Source: Anaerotignum sp. (GTDB taxonomy: Bacteria; Bacillota; Clostridia; Lachnospirales; Anaerotignaceae). From it: 5,481 bases of DNA. The stretch is taken from assembly GCA_017560955.1 (NCBI GenBank), contig JAFZDV010000214.1, positions 1 to 5,481 of the forward strand, given 5' to 3'. A program made the position numbers and the translations under genes. A model generated the notes under the pieces. The model ran no database searches and was not told the DNA's origin. It saw nothing but the letters and a program-made list of their open reading frames with translations. This document shows positions 1-5,481 of the stretch, in pieces; the first letter of the stretch is position 1, and every line of letters begins with the position of its first letter.

Positions 1-9
1 AAAAATAGT

Positions 10-31
10 GGAACTTTCGGGAAGAAGTTCC
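10..31. repeat. Inverted repeat (7-bp hairpin) upstream of the first gene
   Basis: GGAACTT (10-16) and AAGTTCC (25-31) are exact reverse complements around an 8-base loop, and flanking G-T wobbles could add two pairs. On the plus strand no T-run follows it. On the minus strand the hairpin would be followed by CACTATTTTT, so it could be a weak terminator for a gene converging from the right, but no such gene is visible. It may also be the base of a structured leader or an operator. The upstream context lies outside the window, so its role is unresolved. Confidence 0.35.
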
Positions 32-56
32 GTCAGAATAAAAAGGTGTATTTGAT

Positions 57-62
57 AAGGAG
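57..62 (+). promoter_or_regulatory. Ribosome binding site of the glycosidase gene
   Basis: AAGGAG lies 8 bases before the ATG at 71, a near-ideal Shine-Dalgarno match and spacing. This fixes the start, because the next residues (MKKRLVKR then a hydrophobic stretch) form a proper signal peptide. No convincing promoter can be picked in the 56 bases upstream; it probably lies outside the window. Confidence 0.8.
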
Positions 63-70
63 ATGAGAGG

Positions 71-2425
71 ATGAAAAAAAGACTGGTAAAACGCACCATT
101 GGTATGGCGCTGGCTGCGATGATGCTGCTTTCTCCCCTGAGTTATTTTGGGATGGAAACAGCTTATGCGGCAACACAGTATGAAATGAAATCTGAAAAAA
201 TCGTGACCCGTGGGGTGACTTATGAAAAGAACAGCCGTATGACGGACGCAGGGGTACAGAATATCCATGTGATGAAGGTAGACCTGACAGAAAGCACACT
301 GGAAATCAGAGAAGTGGAATCCAAAAACGGCTATGGTCTGAAAGAAACAGTAAAGAAAATGCTGGCAGACAATGGTGCTGTGGCTGGGGTGAATGCAGAC
401 TTTTTCGGTCTGAGCGGCTCCCATTCTGCACCCTTTGGCCCTGTTGTGAAAGATGGGGAAATGATTTCTGCAGGTACAACGCTGAATAAAACAGAAGGTC
501 AGTATGCAGCATTCTTTATGGATGAGAAGGGCAATCCTTTCTTCGACTACTTCAAAATGACAGCGAAATTCGGTAACGAAAAGAAAATGCTGGAACTGGC
601 GGGTATGAACAAGTTTGCATCTCTGGTGTTCCCTGCATATCTGGATACTAATGCTATGACAACAACAGCATCTCTGGACAGTCGTTTTCAGAATCTGGTG
701 AAATTTGTTGTGGTAGATGATACAATCACTTTTATTTCTGAAAAAGGCCAGACAGTATCTGTGCCTGAGGATGGATATGTGATCGTGATGAGCGGTGATT
801 ACCGTACAAATGCTGCCCATATGTTTGCTGTGGGCGATGAAGTGGTGCTGGACATCAATTCTTCTGTAAATCTGGATGAGATGGAAACAGCCTTTGGCGG
901 CGGCGGCAAACTGCTGGTGGACGGCAAAATCACAGCAGCAAATTCCAAAGTTGCAACAGGCAGACAGCCCAGAACAGCTTTTGGTGTATCCAAGGATGGT
1001 AATACAGCTATTTTCATGGTTGTGGACGGCAGAGGCGAAAGTATCGGTGCCACACATTGGGAACTGGGTCTTCTGATGCAGGAATATGGTGCTTATGAAG
1101 CCATGCATCTGGATGGTGGCGGTTCCTCCACTATGGTTGCAAAAACGAATGAAGATAAAACACTGACTGTACAGAATACAGTCTCTGAAGGTTCTGAAAG
1201 AAAAGTTGTCAATGCAGTAGGCATTTTCCAGAATGCAAAACAGGGCAAAATCGAAGAAATCCGTATTCAGGCTTCTGCGGCAAGAACACTGAAGGGCAGA
1301 GGTATTGATTTTACAGTGTATGGTCTGGATAAATACTTTAATCGTATCGAGATCCCTGCAAATCAGGTGAAACTGTCTGTCATTGGGGTGAAAGGTGCTT
1401 GGGACGGTTATACTTTTACACCCAGCACAACAGGCACATTTACGGTAACAGCTACATATAACGGCATGGGCGCATACCATATCGGCGCAGTCAGCGGCGA
1501 AACAGCAAGACTGAAACCCACGAATGACAACATCAAACTGAAAGTGGGCGAAACAGCGAATATTGCCATGACACTGTATGATACAGATGGTTTTATGTAC
1601 TGGGCATCTACCAGCACAAAATACTCTGTGGGCAATCCTGCAGTAGGTACTATGCAGTCTAATGTTTTCACAGCAAAGGGTGAAGGTTCTACTAACATCA
1701 AATGTGAAAAAGACGGCAAAATTGCATATATCACAGTGACTGTCGGCGATGTGGAAGCGGCGAAAAAACCTGTGGTTGCGGCGGAAAAAGATGTGCTGAA
1801 TAAAACAGTGACAAAGAAGAATGACGGTGCGTATTACTTCAATGTGGCAGGTAAAATTGCATACACAGGCAAAGAAAAAATCGATGAAAAGGTTTATAAC
1901 GATACCAGAAGCAAGGTGAAATCCTATGTGGATGCTAATGCCAATGTGGCGATCTACGGTGGTCTGAATGATATCCAGTCTGCGAAAAAACTGGATTCCC
2001 TTAGCTGGACAGGTCAGTATCGTTTTCTGAACCGCGGCGGTGTGAGCCTTGCCATGGTAGCGGCAACAAATGGCGGCATCAATGCGACAGATGCAAGTCA
2101 GTGGGCAAAATTTACAGGGGATATTGAAAAAGCGAACAACGATACAATCGTTATTGTGACAGATCAGACACCTTCCGACTGGAGAAGTGAAGCAGAGGCA
2201 AATTATCTGCGTGCAGTTCTGAATAAATATGTGGAACAGGGCAAAAAGGTATTTGTGGTTTCCTGCTATAACAAAGGATACTGGTCTTCTGTGAAAGATG
2301 GTGTACGCTATATCAACCTGCCTAACCTGTGGCAGGCAGACGGCACAGCCAATGAAAACTACACAATGCTGCGTTTCCGTGTGAAAGATGGCAATGTTTC
2401 CTATGAGGCTGTGAATATTAAGTAA
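71..2425 (+). CDS. Secreted phosphodiester glycosidase family protein (NAGPA/DUF2233) with Ig-like and C-terminal accessory domains
   Basis: This is a complete 784-residue exported protein. A signal peptide covers residues 1-33: KKR-rich start, hydrophobic core 10-26, and a probable signal peptidase I cut after AYA (31-33). The NAGPA (phosphodiester glycosidase) domain spans about 45-388. Its hallmark motifs are GVNADFF (106-112), RQPRTAFGV (298-306), VVDGRG (317-322) and HLDGGGSSTM (346-355), followed by the closing VVNAVGIF strand (379-386). Family members cleave sugar phosphodiesters, as in the mammalian mannose-6-phosphate uncovering enzyme, and bacterial ones are linked to exopolysaccharide and wall glycans. 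Residues ~395-470 and ~485-560 look like two beta-rich Ig/Big-type segments. The last ~215 residues resemble a calcineurin-like phosphoesterase fold lacking its metal ligands. There is no LPXTG, SLH or C-terminal membrane anchor, so it is probably secreted or loosely wall-bound. The substrate is unknown. It lies 149 bases upstream of the MurJ-ligase gene on the same strand, which suggests an envelope-glycan locus. Confidence 0.92.
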   Translation: MKKRLVKRTIGMALAAMMLLSPLSYFGMETAYAATQYEMKSEKIVTRGVTYEKNSRMTDAGVQNIHVMKVDLTESTLEIREVESKNGYGLKETVKKMLADNGAVAGVNADFFGLSGSHSAPFGPVVKDGEMISAGTTLNKTEGQYAAFFMDEKGNPFFDYFKMTAKFGNEKKMLELAGMNKFASLVFPAYLDTNAMTTTASLDSRFQNLVKFVVVDDTITFISEKGQTVSVPEDGYVIVMSGDYRTNAAHMFAVGDEVVLDINSSVNLDEMETAFGGGGKLLVDGKITAANSKVATGRQPRTAFGVSKDGNTAIFMVVDGRGESIGATHWELGLLMQEYGAYEAMHLDGGGSSTMVAKTNEDKTLTVQNTVSEGSERKVVNAVGIFQNAKQGKIEEIRIQASAARTLKGRGIDFTVYGLDKYFNRIEIPANQVKLSVIGVKGAWDGYTFTPSTTGTFTVTATYNGMGAYHIGAVSGETARLKPTNDNIKLKVGETANIAMTLYDTDGFMYWASTSTKYSVGNPAVGTMQSNVFTAKGEGSTNIKCEKDGKIAYITVTVGDVEAAKKPVVAAEKDVLNKTVTKKNDGAYYFNVAGKIAYTGKEKIDEKVYNDTRSKVKSYVDANANVAIYGGLNDIQSAKKLDSLSWTGQYRFLNRGGVSLAMVAATNGGINATDASQWAKFTGDIEKANNDTIVIVTDQTPSDWRSEAEANYLRAVLNKYVEQGKKVFVVSCYNKGYWSSVKDGVRYINLPNLWQADGTANENYTMLRFRVKDGNVSYEAVNIK

Positions 2426-2454
2426 AAATTAAGATTCAAAATCACAGGGTTTCC

Positions 2455-2486
2455 TTGTAAAAAACTGTATAATGAGGTACTATATA
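2455..2486 (+). promoter_or_regulatory. Candidate promoter for the MurJ-ligase gene
   Basis: The intergenic region contains a perfect -10 hexamer TATAAT (2468-2473), but no good -35 sits 16-18 bases before it. A second arrangement pairs TTGTAA (2455-2460, 4 of 6 to consensus) with TACTAT (2478-2483, 4 of 6) at a 17-base spacer. Either would start transcription at about 2480-2490, just before or within the following hairpin. The location between the stop at 2425 and the ATG at 2575 supports a promoter, but the exact boxes are ambiguous. Confidence 0.4.
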
Positions 2487-2530
2487 AGGTGGGTTATGAT
2501 GCGCATTTTCTGAGCATTGCCCACCTTATT
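2484..2530 (+). terminator. Strong bipartite hairpin, probable intrinsic terminator of the glycosidase gene or 5'-UTR structure
   Basis: ATAAGGTGGG (2484-2493) pairs perfectly over 10 bp with CCCACCTTAT (2520-2529). Inside it, after a 3-base bulge, TGATGC (2497-2502) can pair with GCATTG (2514-2519), including two G-T wobbles, and leaves an 11-base loop. The 3' flank is only moderately T-rich (TTATTTCATT), so termination may be incomplete. It lies 58 bases after the glycosidase stop and just downstream of promoter-like boxes. It could therefore end the first transcript, cap the 5' end of the second, or both. I recognise no known riboswitch class in it. Confidence 0.6.
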
Positions 2531-2559
2531 TCATTGCAAAAAATATTTGAGATAGATTT

Positions 2560-2564
2560 AGGAG
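2560..2564 (+). promoter_or_regulatory. Ribosome binding site of the MurJ-ligase gene
   Basis: AGGAG ends 10 bases before the ATG at 2575 in an otherwise A/T-rich leader. It supports that start. The encoded N-terminus MSEKGNQAVK leads directly into the first MurJ membrane helix, as expected for the family. Confidence 0.75.
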
Positions 2565-2574
2565 TTTTATTATC

Positions 2575-5481
2575 ATGTCGGAAAAAGGAAATCAGGCGGT
2601 AAAGACCGTCAGTTTTATGATGTTGATCACCCTTTTCGGGAAAATATTAGGTCTGGTGAGAGAACAGTTTCTGGCGGCAAATTATGCCACAGGGATGGAG
2701 GCGGCGGCGTTTTTAACAGCCAGCAGAATCCCCCGTACCTTCTTTGATGTAATTTTTGCATCTGCCATTTCTGCCAGCTTTATCCCTGTTTTTGTGGAAT
2801 ATCTGCAGAAATATGGAAAAGAGGAAGCCTACAGACTGGCGAACCGTTTCATTACTGTAATTTCCACGGTAACGGCGGTCATTACAGTGGCATGCATGGT
2901 TCTGGCGAAACCTGTAGCAGGACTGGTTGCACCCGGTTTTGATGCACAGACCATGGCACTGTGTGTGGAACTGTTACGCATGCTGTTCCCTACGATGCTG
3001 TTTACGGCAGTTGCCTTTTCTTTCGTTGGTATCCTGCAGTCTCTGGATGAATTCAACATCCCTGCGGCGTTGAGTGTAGCATCCAACGGTATCCTGATCG
3101 TTTATTATATCCTGTTCAATGACAGATTTGGCGTGTATGGTCTGACTATCGCATTCCTCATCGGCTGGCTGATGCAGGCAGTGATACAGATCCCTGCTTT
3201 GTGTAAAAAAGGATATTTCTACAGACCTGATTTTCATTTTAAAGATGAAGGTCTGAAAAAAATCGGCAAACTGATGATCCCTGTTATGGTCAGCACATGG
3301 ATCCAGCCCATCAACTTTCTGGTAAATACCCGTTTTGCATCTCAGCTTTCCAATAATGGCGTGACAAACGGCGAACTGGGGGTTTCTGCGCTGGAATATG
3401 CCAACAACCTGTATACCATCATCGTTGGGGTGTTCGTTCTGGCTATTGCCAATATGGTATTCCCCAAATTTTCCCGTATGACCGATGATAAAAAGGAATT
3501 TGGTCTGGCGGTCAGAGGGACACTGAGAGCGATGATTTTCCTGCTGATTCCTATGACAGTTGGTCTGATGGCTCTGGCGGAACCTGTAGTAGCATTGATT
3601 TACCAGCGTGGTGAATTCGGTATGCTGGCAACGGAAATGACTTCTGCGGCACTGTTCTTCTTTGCACTGGGCATGGTTGGCTATGGTGTGCAGAATATCC
3701 TGAGCCGTGCCTTTTATGCAAATCAGGATGGGAAAACACCATTTTATTCCGGTCTGGTTTCCATCATCATCAATGCAGTGATGTGCTGGCTGCTGTTAAA
3801 GCCCATGGGCATCGGCGGTCTGGCACTGGCGGCGGCGGTTTCTTCCACTGCGGCGGCAGCGGTACTGATGGTTCCTGCAGTGAAGCAGTATCCTGATATT
3901 CTGGATAAATCTCTGGTTGGCCAGTTTATGAAAATGGTACTGGCGGCGGCAGGCATGCTGATACTGGTGTTTGGCTGCAGAATGGTGCTGAATCCTCTGA
4001 CAGGCAGACTGCTGGGACAGATCATCCTGCTTTGTGTCTGCGGCGGTGTGGGTGTTGTATCCTACATGGTATTTGCGAAATTACTCAGAATCGAAGAAAG
4101 CGATTTTGTGTTTGATATTGTGAAAAAAATCCTCGGCAGAGGAAAAGGCGGTGCATCTGAGGGTGTATCTGCTGTGAAAAAGAAAAGAAAACGGAGAACA
4201 TATACTATGATCGAAAAGATGTCTTTCTTAATTGAAGATAGTTTCTGCTTCCGTTTCATTGAAAGAATCTGGAACATTCTGGCGATTCTGTGGACAGACA
4301 GCATTGCAGGCGGTATCTGGGCGAAGATCTGCAAAGGCTGGGCCAATGCTTTTGAAAACAGCTCTATTCTGAATTTCCTGAGAGCAGACTGGGATGACCA
4401 TCTGTGTACAGGCAATGGTATCCTGCCTCGTTTCTGGAGAAATGTGACAAACTGGAGCGGTTTGGCGGTACGCAGAAGAAATAATGCTTTTGCGGCGGCT
4501 ATGGGCGAAAGTTTCATTTTCCGTCTGTTCAATCAGAATTTCCTGATCCTGTGTCTGGCGGCAAGCGTGGCGGCGATTCCTGTTCTGCCTACGATGCTTC
4601 TGGCGGTGCTGGTGCTGGCTACATTTGCCCTGTACGTTATTCAGCTCTTCCTTGGCAGAGTGAAAGCACAGAAAACAACGATGGTAAGTGTCCTGCTGGG
4701 CTGTTTTGCAGTCTGCATCGTGTATGCAGGTACGACCAGTTATGCGTTCCCTACGGCGCTGCTTTCCATGGCATTGTTCCTGATCCTGATGGCGGTATTC
4801 TTTGTGGCGAAGGATGCTATTGATACAGAAGAAAAACTGGATTTTGTGCTGTGGGTAATGATCAGCATGGGTGCTCTCATTGCACTTTATGCGGTATATC
4901 AGTATATCGTTGGCGTAGAAATGGATGCGGCATGGGTCGATGCCAATAACTTTGACATCAAGACAAGAGCCTATGCAACCTTCACAAACCCTAATGTATT
5001 AGGTGAATATCTGATCCTTGTCGGCTCTCTGGCGGCAGGTATGATGTGGAAAATGAGAAGCTGGGTTGGCAAACTGTATTACACAGCCTGCTTCGGTGTG
5101 ATCTGCCTTGGTCTGGTGGCAACAGGTTCCCGTGGTGCCATGCTGGGTCTGATGTTCTCCGCAGGTATGTTTGTGCTGCTGTCTGAAAAACGCCTGATCC
5201 CTCTGGGGGTAGTTTTCCTGATGCTGATGCCTTTTATCCTGCCTGCGAGCCTGTGGGCAAGACTGGCAAGTTCCATCACCATGAACGACTCCTCCTCCCT
5301 GTATCGTATGTCTATCTACAGTGCTTCTTTTGACATCATCCAGCACTACTGGCAGACGGGTATTGGTATCGGGGCATTTAACGAAATTTATCCGCTGTTC
5401 TCCTTAGAGGCGGCGAATGCATATCATTCCCACAACCTGTTCCTGCAGGAATTCATTGAACTGGGTATCGTGGGCTTCAGC
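2575..5481 (+). CDS. murJ: MurJ/MviN-type flippase fused in frame to an O-antigen ligase/polymerase (partial, runs off the right edge)
   Basis: A single open frame gives 969 residues with no stop before the window ends. Residues 1 to ~520 are a MurJ/MviN lipid II flippase of the MOP superfamily, close to the usual ~500-residue length. Seen here are KILGLVRE (23-30), the FIPVF segment after helix 2, GILQSLDEFNIPA (152-164), YANNLY (275-280), PMTVGLMALAEP (326-337), YQRGEF (343-348) and ILSRAFYANQDGKTP (375-389). Many hydrophobic segments follow, as expected for 14 helices. A polar linker with KKKRKRR (535-541) leads into an O-antigen ligase/Wzy-type module from about residue 545. MurJ moves undecaprenyl-linked precursors outward; Wzy_C-type enzymes join or transfer such glycans on the outer face. 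Both termini of MurJ are normally cytoplasmic, as is the N-terminus of the ligase, so the fusion is topologically sensible. The reading frame is certain. Whether one polypeptide or two are made is not, because an internal start with its own ribosome site lies at 4207. A lost stop through sequencing error is also possible. Confidence 0.88.
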   Translation, partial: MSEKGNQAVKTVSFMMLITLFGKILGLVREQFLAANYATGMEAAAFLTASRIPRTFFDVIFASAISASFIPVFVEYLQKYGKEEAYRLANRFITVISTVTAVITVACMVLAKPVAGLVAPGFDAQTMALCVELLRMLFPTMLFTAVAFSFVGILQSLDEFNIPAALSVASNGILIVYYILFNDRFGVYGLTIAFLIGWLMQAVIQIPALCKKGYFYRPDFHFKDEGLKKIGKLMIPVMVSTWIQPINFLVNTRFASQLSNNGVTNGELGVSALEYANNLYTIIVGVFVLAIANMVFPKFSRMTDDKKEFGLAVRGTLRAMIFLLIPMTVGLMALAEPVVALIYQRGEFGMLATEMTSAALFFFALGMVGYGVQNILSRAFYANQDGKTPFYSGLVSIIINAVMCWLLLKPMGIGGLALAAAVSSTAAAAVLMVPAVKQYPDILDKSLVGQFMKMVLAAAGMLILVFGCRMVLNPLTGRLLGQIILLCVCGGVGVVSYMVFAKLLRIEESDFVFDIVKKILGRGKGGASEGVSAVKKKRKRRTYTMIEKMSFLIEDSFCFRFIERIWNILAILWTDSIAGGIWAKICKGWANAFENSSILNFLRADWDDHLCTGNGILPRFWRNVTNWSGLAVRRRNNAFAAAMGESFIFRLFNQNFLILCLAASVAAIPVLPTMLLAVLVLATFALYVIQLFLGRVKAQKTTMVSVLLGCFAVCIVYAGTTSYAFPTALLSMALFLILMAVFFVAKDAIDTEEKLDFVLWVMISMGALIALYAVYQYIVGVEMDAAWVDANNFDIKTRAYATFTNPNVLGEYLILVGSLAAGMMWKMRSWVGKLYYTACFGVICLGLVATGSRGAMLGLMFSAGMFVLLSEKRLIPLGVVFLMLMPFILPASLWARLASSITMNDSSSLYRMSIYSASFDIIQHYWQTGIGIGAFNEIYPLFSLEAANAYHSHNLFLQEFIELGIVGFS
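4193..4209 (+). promoter_or_regulatory. Internal Shine-Dalgarno and in-frame ATG at the start of the ligase module
   Basis: GGAGA (4193-4197) lies 9 bases before ATG (4207-4209), which is in frame with the upstream MurJ sequence (residue 545). Spacing and strength match a normal start site. The Shine-Dalgarno bases encode Arg-Arg in the basic linker. This looks like the start of a formerly or currently separate ligase gene, allowing the ligase to be translated alone as well as in the fusion. Confidence 0.5.
4207..5481 (+). other. O-antigen ligase/polymerase (Wzy_C/WaaL-type) module of the fusion, C-terminus missing
   Basis: Residues 545-969 of the long frame, or 1-425 if translated from the internal ATG. 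The first ~110 residues are aromatic-rich and amphipathic without a clear membrane span, so probably cytosolic. Hydrophobic helices follow at roughly 653-692, 702-720, 723-744, 756-779, 808-824, 835-850, 855-869 and 873-890. Family signatures are FTNPN followed by LGEYL (803-813), TGSRGA (850-855, containing the conserved Arg), YRMSIY (910-915), TGIGIGAFNEIYP (928-940) and YHSHNLFLQ (950-958, the HxHN motif in the periplasmic or extracellular loop). Known members transfer or polymerise undecaprenyl-pyrophosphate-linked glycans. Ligase and polymerase members cannot be told apart by sequence alone; in a Gram-positive, a capsule or wall polysaccharide polymerase or transferase is likelier than an LPS ligase. 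The final helices and any C-terminal tail lie beyond the window. Confidence 0.82.

Follow-up and report, generated by a model that had tools for sequence, protein, structure and literature searches.

The fused open reading frame

The window analysed here, 5,481 nt in all, is contig JAFZDV010000214.1 of Anaerotignum sp. (assembly GCA_017560955.1; family Anaerotignaceae, order Lachnospirales), read on the forward strand. Downstream of a gene for a NAGPA-domain protein, it carries a long open reading frame in which a MurJ-family flippase is joined through a basic linker to an enzyme of the O-antigen ligase family (Table 1). The Anaerotignum group that has this fusion consists of gut bacteria. A first-pass annotation of the window had described a full-length MurJ running through this linker into a ligase module without a stop codon, and the frame itself, profile matches, relatives and structure models all confirmed that description. 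The MurJ profile of Pfam (PF03023) matched residues 39-466 of the fusion (E 1.2e-87), and TIGR01695 matched residues 9-513 with 367.6 bits against a curated equivalog cut-off of 235.55. The Wzy_C profile (PF04932) matched residues 841-968 (E 6.4e-18; 65.4 bits against a gathering cut-off of 31.7). The predicted structures show a MurJ fold for the first module and a WaaL-type membrane glycosyltransferase fold for the C-terminal one.

Table 1. Positions of the features in the window
Feature	Position	Strand	Basis
MurJ::O-antigen-ligase fusion gene	2575..>5481	+	open reading frame of 969 codons, without stop up to the contig end; profiles
Shine-Dalgarno-like AGGAG	2560..2564	+	10 nt 5' of the fusion's own ATG; read from the sequence
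MurJ-family flippase module, residues 1-513	2575..4113	+	
Basic linker, predicted disordered, residues 515-544	4117..4206	+	composition; pLDDT
Shine-Dalgarno-like GGAGA	4193..4197	+	9 nt 5' of the internal ATG
ATG of Met545, likely internal start	4207..4209	+	close to the codon at which unfused relatives start their ligase
N-terminal helical region of the ligase module, residues 545-650	4207..4524	+	model helices; conserved serines; amphipathic by eye
WaaL/Wzy-fold membrane enzyme core, residue 650 to window end	4522..5481	+	
Arg853 (SRG motif), candidate active-site residue	5131..5133	+	invariant in alignments
His951 and His953 (YHxHN motif), candidate active-site residues	5425..5433	+	invariant in alignments
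NAGPA-domain (phosphodiester glycosidase) protein gene, upstream, same cluster	71..2425	+	PF09992, E 2.1e-33

A protein search with residues 400-969 of the fusion scored 7998 candidates and returned 149 proteins at E<=0.001. Of the 120 matches listed, 119 carry both Pfam families, P0078 being without Wzy_C. Since 112 of these 120 are 1042-1061 aa long, the fusion in the window is short of about its last 84 residues; compared with the 1053-aa relative P0002, some 84 codons are missing at the 3' end. The fusion is also present in the complete chromosome NZ_CP133078 (Anaerotignum sp. MB30-C6; locus L009), in A. neopropionicum DSM 3847 and in A. lactatifermentans An390.

Residues R853, R911, H951 and H953 of the ligase module are invariant both in alignment A1 and in alignment A2, the latter with unfused relatives included. 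They presumably correspond to the catalytic residues of WaaL. A PDB sequence search with the ligase module gave no true match. The first ~105 residues of this module (4207-4524 and orthologous regions) lie outside the WaaL match; they form helices in the models, contain conserved serines and look amphipathic by eye.

Distribution and history of the fusion

We searched 58 genomes of the family and checked the frames locus by locus. The two modules are fused in 25 genomes, comprising all those of genera g1 (9/9; one, G008, counted from a partial contig), g2 (7/7), g5 (8/8) and g15 (1/1), and are encoded by separate close genes in 31; two genomes could not be assessed, G035 lacking a MurJ match and G042 any match. 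The first-pass annotation had named a stop codon near 4130-4206 in close relatives as evidence against the fusion. Such stops were seen only in other genera of the family, namely in the 31 genomes with separate genes. The fusion is lineage-specific, and the other genera keep two overlapping or abutting genes. Apparent open frames of ~1,000 aa in g3, g6, g7, g12 and g14 were considered as recurrent fusions and rejected, as a stop lies between the frames in every one. In the fused locus G004 the frame is broken close to the N-terminus, perhaps through an assembly error.

In g4 both frames are in register and separated by a single TAA, followed by AAAGGA and ATG, and in several other unfused loci the stop codon of MurJ shares bases with the start codon of the ligase; the fused and separate states therefore differ by very little DNA. 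In a tree of 27 concatenated pairs, the fused g15 grouped with the separate g4 (support 98/96). A single clade of all fused rows was weakly rejected (p-AU 0.031), as was a grouping of g4 with g1, g2 and g5 but without g15 (p-AU 0.036), with long branches in play in both cases. The tree requires at least two changes of state, and either a pair of fusions or a single fusion together with a split would fit.

Gene cluster around the fusion

Because the contig stops inside the fusion, the rest of the cluster has to be read from relatives. The genes of L009 (g5) run LCP, uridine kinase, two short reverse-strand frames, NAGPA, MurJ::ligase, GT4, two DUF4330, GT4::CsaB, TagA/WecG and YitT. We sampled the neighbourhoods of 46 family loci, one of which (L055) lacks MurJ on its contig, and many of which are too short to reach TagA or LCP. 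A CsaB domain was found in 43 of the 46 and a GT4 gene directly 3' of the ligase in 45, the exceptions sitting at contig ends; TagA was found in 19. Of the 43 loci with both, 41 have GT4 and the CsaB-type pyruvyltransferase in one frame (L009:11693-13954 and orthologues), so that the cluster often holds two fusion proteins; the other two, L002 and L003, come from near the window's genome. SLH domains were detected in all 22 relatives tested, and the window's own genome has 24 matches.

Outside the family, 35 loci of the order were examined, picked for adjacency or strong MurJ matches and hence not a random sample. In 22 of them the stretch with MurJ also carries CsaB, MurJ, ligase and GT4 follow in direct order in 5 (families f2 and f23), and none of these partners is present in 9. 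A different fusion, MurJ::GT4::CsaB, occurs in 2 of the 10 loci of family f19, the two frames overlapping or abutting in the other 8. One of these fusions is 1314 aa long with all three parts found by Pfam (L084:264-4205, + strand); the other (L085, reverse strand, bases 2-3520 of the reverse complement) is 1173 aa long and ends at the contig edge.

As to the region upstream of the fusion, a NAGPA protein gene precedes MurJ in many, not all, relatives of the order. Between the two genes of the window, an inverted repeat AAGGTGGG...CCCACCTT was noticed by eye at 2486-2527, to which the terminator scan gave no score. A scan of 2380-2620 yielded promoter-like sites at chance level only (1, against a mean of 1.0), and a terminator-like site from the same interval was set aside, as it sits inside coding sequence.

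The joint and a likely internal start

Residues 522-544 of the linker include 9 K/R and 1 D/E, and in the structure model the predicted local distance difference test score (pLDDT) falls below 50 at residues 519-559. A basic, disordered linker of this kind would fit a cytoplasmic connection from the MurJ C-terminus to the ligase N-terminus. Although the linker varies in length and sequence, 119 of the 120 aligned relatives have retained Met545, and among 25 distinct fused loci 23 have ATG as the corresponding codon. This ATG is preceded at 9-10 nt by a Shine-Dalgarno-like core: GGAGA in most g1 loci, AGAGGA or AGGGG in g5 and AAAGGA in g2. In predicted pairing with a generic 16S end, 10% or fewer of the other internal Met codons equal or beat the joint ATG in 19 of 23 loci, some of which are near-duplicates.

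Codon usage was examined in two ways. In a column test, all 14 rows of g5 and g2 have a purine as the last base of the Gly codon at -4, as happens in just 2 of 46 invariant-Gly columns with the -4 column included; for g2 alone the test discriminates poorly, with 10 of 55 Gly columns passing it. All 9 rows of g1 have CGG or TGG at -5, so that Arg is exchanged for Trp while the GG stays. This column test serves better than a synonymous-codon null, but its signal is modest. These features suggest that the joint ATG and its motif are likely an internal start inherited from a separate ligase gene. Three observations weigh against such a start: i) the synonymous-codon null for the motif gave p<0.05 in only 2 of 25 loci; ii) Met545 is absent from one of the 120 relatives and from locus L035 (single-contig genome G020), which has CTC in its place with AGAGGA kept, the only such case among the g5 loci examined; and iii) in L040 (g15) the ATG lies one codon earlier, behind a weak Shine-Dalgarno-like motif.

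The MurJ module and its substrate

Arginines 24, 52 and 270 (E. coli MurJ numbering) are important in the lipid II flippase. In the window R24 is kept, while R52 is replaced by Phe and R270 by Asn; Arg52 and Arg270 are replaced in all family rows covering them. We had considered this loss as proof against a lipid II flippase but dropped it, since MurJ proteins of the order outside the cluster also lack these arginines: among the 35 order-level MurJ, R52 is kept in none covering it, and R270 is kept in 3 and missing in 32.

One MurJ above the TIGR01695 cut-off was found in 55 of the 58 family genomes, and two in none. All 27 genomes tested contain relatives of TIGR02900 (SpoVB-type), every one of them below that model's cut-off; these are candidates for the lipid II role, and the MurJ of B. 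subtilis (YtgP) belongs with the same group. Amj was found in 0 of the 27 genomes. A parallel exists in C. difficile, where MurJ1/MviN is encoded in the PS-II cluster and the role of lipid II flippase is given to MurJ2, the orthologue of B. subtilis MurJ (PMC12548448). Knock-down of MviN reduced surface PS-II, and CD2777 is the proposed polymerase (PMC5065235). Judged by this parallel, the most likely cargo of the fused MurJ is the unit of a secondary cell wall polymer (SCWP). The replacement of Arg52 and Arg270 agrees with such a role but, being frequent among MurJ of the order, does not settle it.

Comparison with known systems

The PS-II locus of C. difficile resembles the fusion locus in bringing a MurJ-family flippase and a proposed polymerase together with LCP proteins in one wall-glycopolymer locus (PMC5065235), but there flippase and polymerase are two separate genes. 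PS-II anchors CWB2 proteins (PMC4973711), whereas CsaB and SLH domains in the Anaerotignum-type locus point to a pyruvylated SCWP. The SCWP pathway of B. anthracis (MATE-like Bas5279, WpaA/WpaB, CsaB and TagA) would have in common with the fusion locus a pyruvylated SCWP, SLH anchoring, a proposed Wzx/Wzy-type route and enzymes of the Wzy/WaaL clan. It differs in its separate genes, in WpaA/WpaB being PF13425 as against PF04932 in the fusion, and in a flippase described as MATE-like (PMC6030368, PMC6801904). That route was itself proposed from predictions, and the steps after pyruvylation in P. alvei are called elusive (same papers); one review considers the route not deducible from genome content alone (PMC7831098).

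Compared with the MurJ lipid II flippases of known structure (E. coli 6cc4/9ukv, 7wag and T. africanus 5t77), the fused MurJ belongs to a wall-polymer cluster, has a further enzyme attached C-terminally and is without Arg52 and Arg270. Relative to WaaL (7tpg) and the SEDS polymerases FtsW and RodA, the fused ligase is tethered to a flippase and has its N-terminal helical region in addition; its host, unlike the hosts of WaaL, is assumed by us to have no lipopolysaccharide. VanZ domains that are joined to, or sit beside, flippases of the MviN/MATE clan and further wall genes have been described (PMC12419801). No report of a natural MurJ-Wzy, Wzx-Wzy or flippase-polymerase fusion, and no paper treating Anaerotignum together with MurJ, was found among the open-licence papers searched.

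Proposed function and alternatives

Because relatives have CsaB, TagA and GT4 in the cluster, a Wzx-Wzy-like role in wall glycopolymer synthesis is the best reading. We propose, with a probability of roughly 0.6, that the product of this single gene, flippase and O-antigen-ligase-family enzyme in one protein, acts as a single-chain Wzx-Wzy machine for a pyruvylated SCWP that would anchor the S-layer. On the inside, TagA, GT4 enzymes and CsaB would build an undecaprenyl-PP-linked pyruvylated repeat, which the MurJ module would flip; on the outside, the tethered WaaL/Wzy-fold module would polymerise or transfer the repeat, an LCP protein would fix the polymer to peptidoglycan, and SLH-domain proteins would bind the polymer so fixed. 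The joint ATG and its Shine-Dalgarno-like motif would yield a free ligase of ~57 kDa beside the fusion of ~116 kDa. The first-pass annotation had already put forward a single-chain Wzx-Wzy-like machine; the joining of a flippase to a Wzy/WaaL-type enzyme stands, and the cluster favours the role, but the fusion is confined to certain lineages and a free ligase is likely made too.

Several observations count against the proposed machine. The whole-chain model has a predicted template modelling score (pTM) of 0.49, so that the relative arrangement of the two modules is not given by it, and the predicted fold fits Wzy and WaaL alike, leaving polymerase and ligase indistinguishable on that ground. 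LCP was found in 9 of the 46 family loci (g5, g2, g7 and g12) and in none of g1, the window's genus; CsaB had no match in the window's own genome, a fragmented assembly that is 68% complete. The majority of the family manage with the two genes apart, so that fusing them is no requirement. Knock-down of MviN in C. difficile also altered further genes of its locus, and the authors of that work leave the exact part of MviN open (PMC5065235).

It is unlikely that the MurJ module is an ordinary lipid II flippase with a tethered enzyme of another pathway, the two joined only by loss of a stop between neighbouring genes. The single MurJ above the cut-off and the lack of Amj speak for this view, as does the small change needed, g4 being one TAA away from fusion. 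Set against them are the SpoVB-type relatives in every genome tested, the position of MurJ within the CsaB cluster, which holds across the whole family and for several further families, its fusion to GT4::CsaB elsewhere, and the assignment to the polymer of precisely that C. difficile MurJ which lies in the polymer cluster (PMC12548448); the two replaced arginines, commonly lost across the order, do not decide. A fusion made by assembly or sequencing error, which the fragmented state of the window's genome might invite, is already refuted, because the same open joint occurs in the complete genome NZ_CP133078 and in isolates (L012 and L013), within a total of 24 other distinct loci.

The fusion may be neutral, the modules being independent enzymes on the same polymer with most of the work done by free ligase from the internal start. 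Unfused pairs do serve 31 of the 58 genomes, and the ATG and motif are kept at the joint, but an open joint maintained in 24 of 24 genomes of three genera (g1, g2 and g5), where one new stop would undo the fusion, makes this rather unlikely. The C-terminal module might also be a WaaL-like ligase and not a polymerase, moving finished polymer or single units onto MurJ-delivered lipid II or nascent glycan strands. The fold does not separate Wzy from WaaL, and the neighbourhood in g5 and g2 includes an LCP protein, the enzyme by which attachment is usually made; we regard such a ligase as improbable. Returning to the single-chain machine, a fuller version of it can be offered tentatively, at somewhat less than even odds: it would be a two-product machine, in which the flippase-polymerase chain passes every flipped wall-polymer unit directly on for polymerisation and an in-frame ribosome-binding site gives extra free polymerase. 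The MurJ C-terminus would then be a repeated docking point at which members of the order fused two different enzymes of one pathway (the polymerase in Anaerotignum and the pyruvyltransferase elsewhere), and SCWP export would proceed via a physically coupled complex from pyruvylation to polymerisation.

Implications

Export and polymerisation of the pyruvylated SCWP are called unresolved in P. alvei (PMC6030368, PMC6801904), and a flippase-polymerase fusion in a CsaB cluster names likely parts for these steps. So does the other fusion found in nature, between this flippase family and a pyruvyltransferase, and the question is testable in cultured Anaerotignum. The hand-over from flippase to polymerase resembles the step from MurJ to FtsW/RodA in peptidoglycan synthesis, and the fusion is a ready-made single-chain construct for its structural study.

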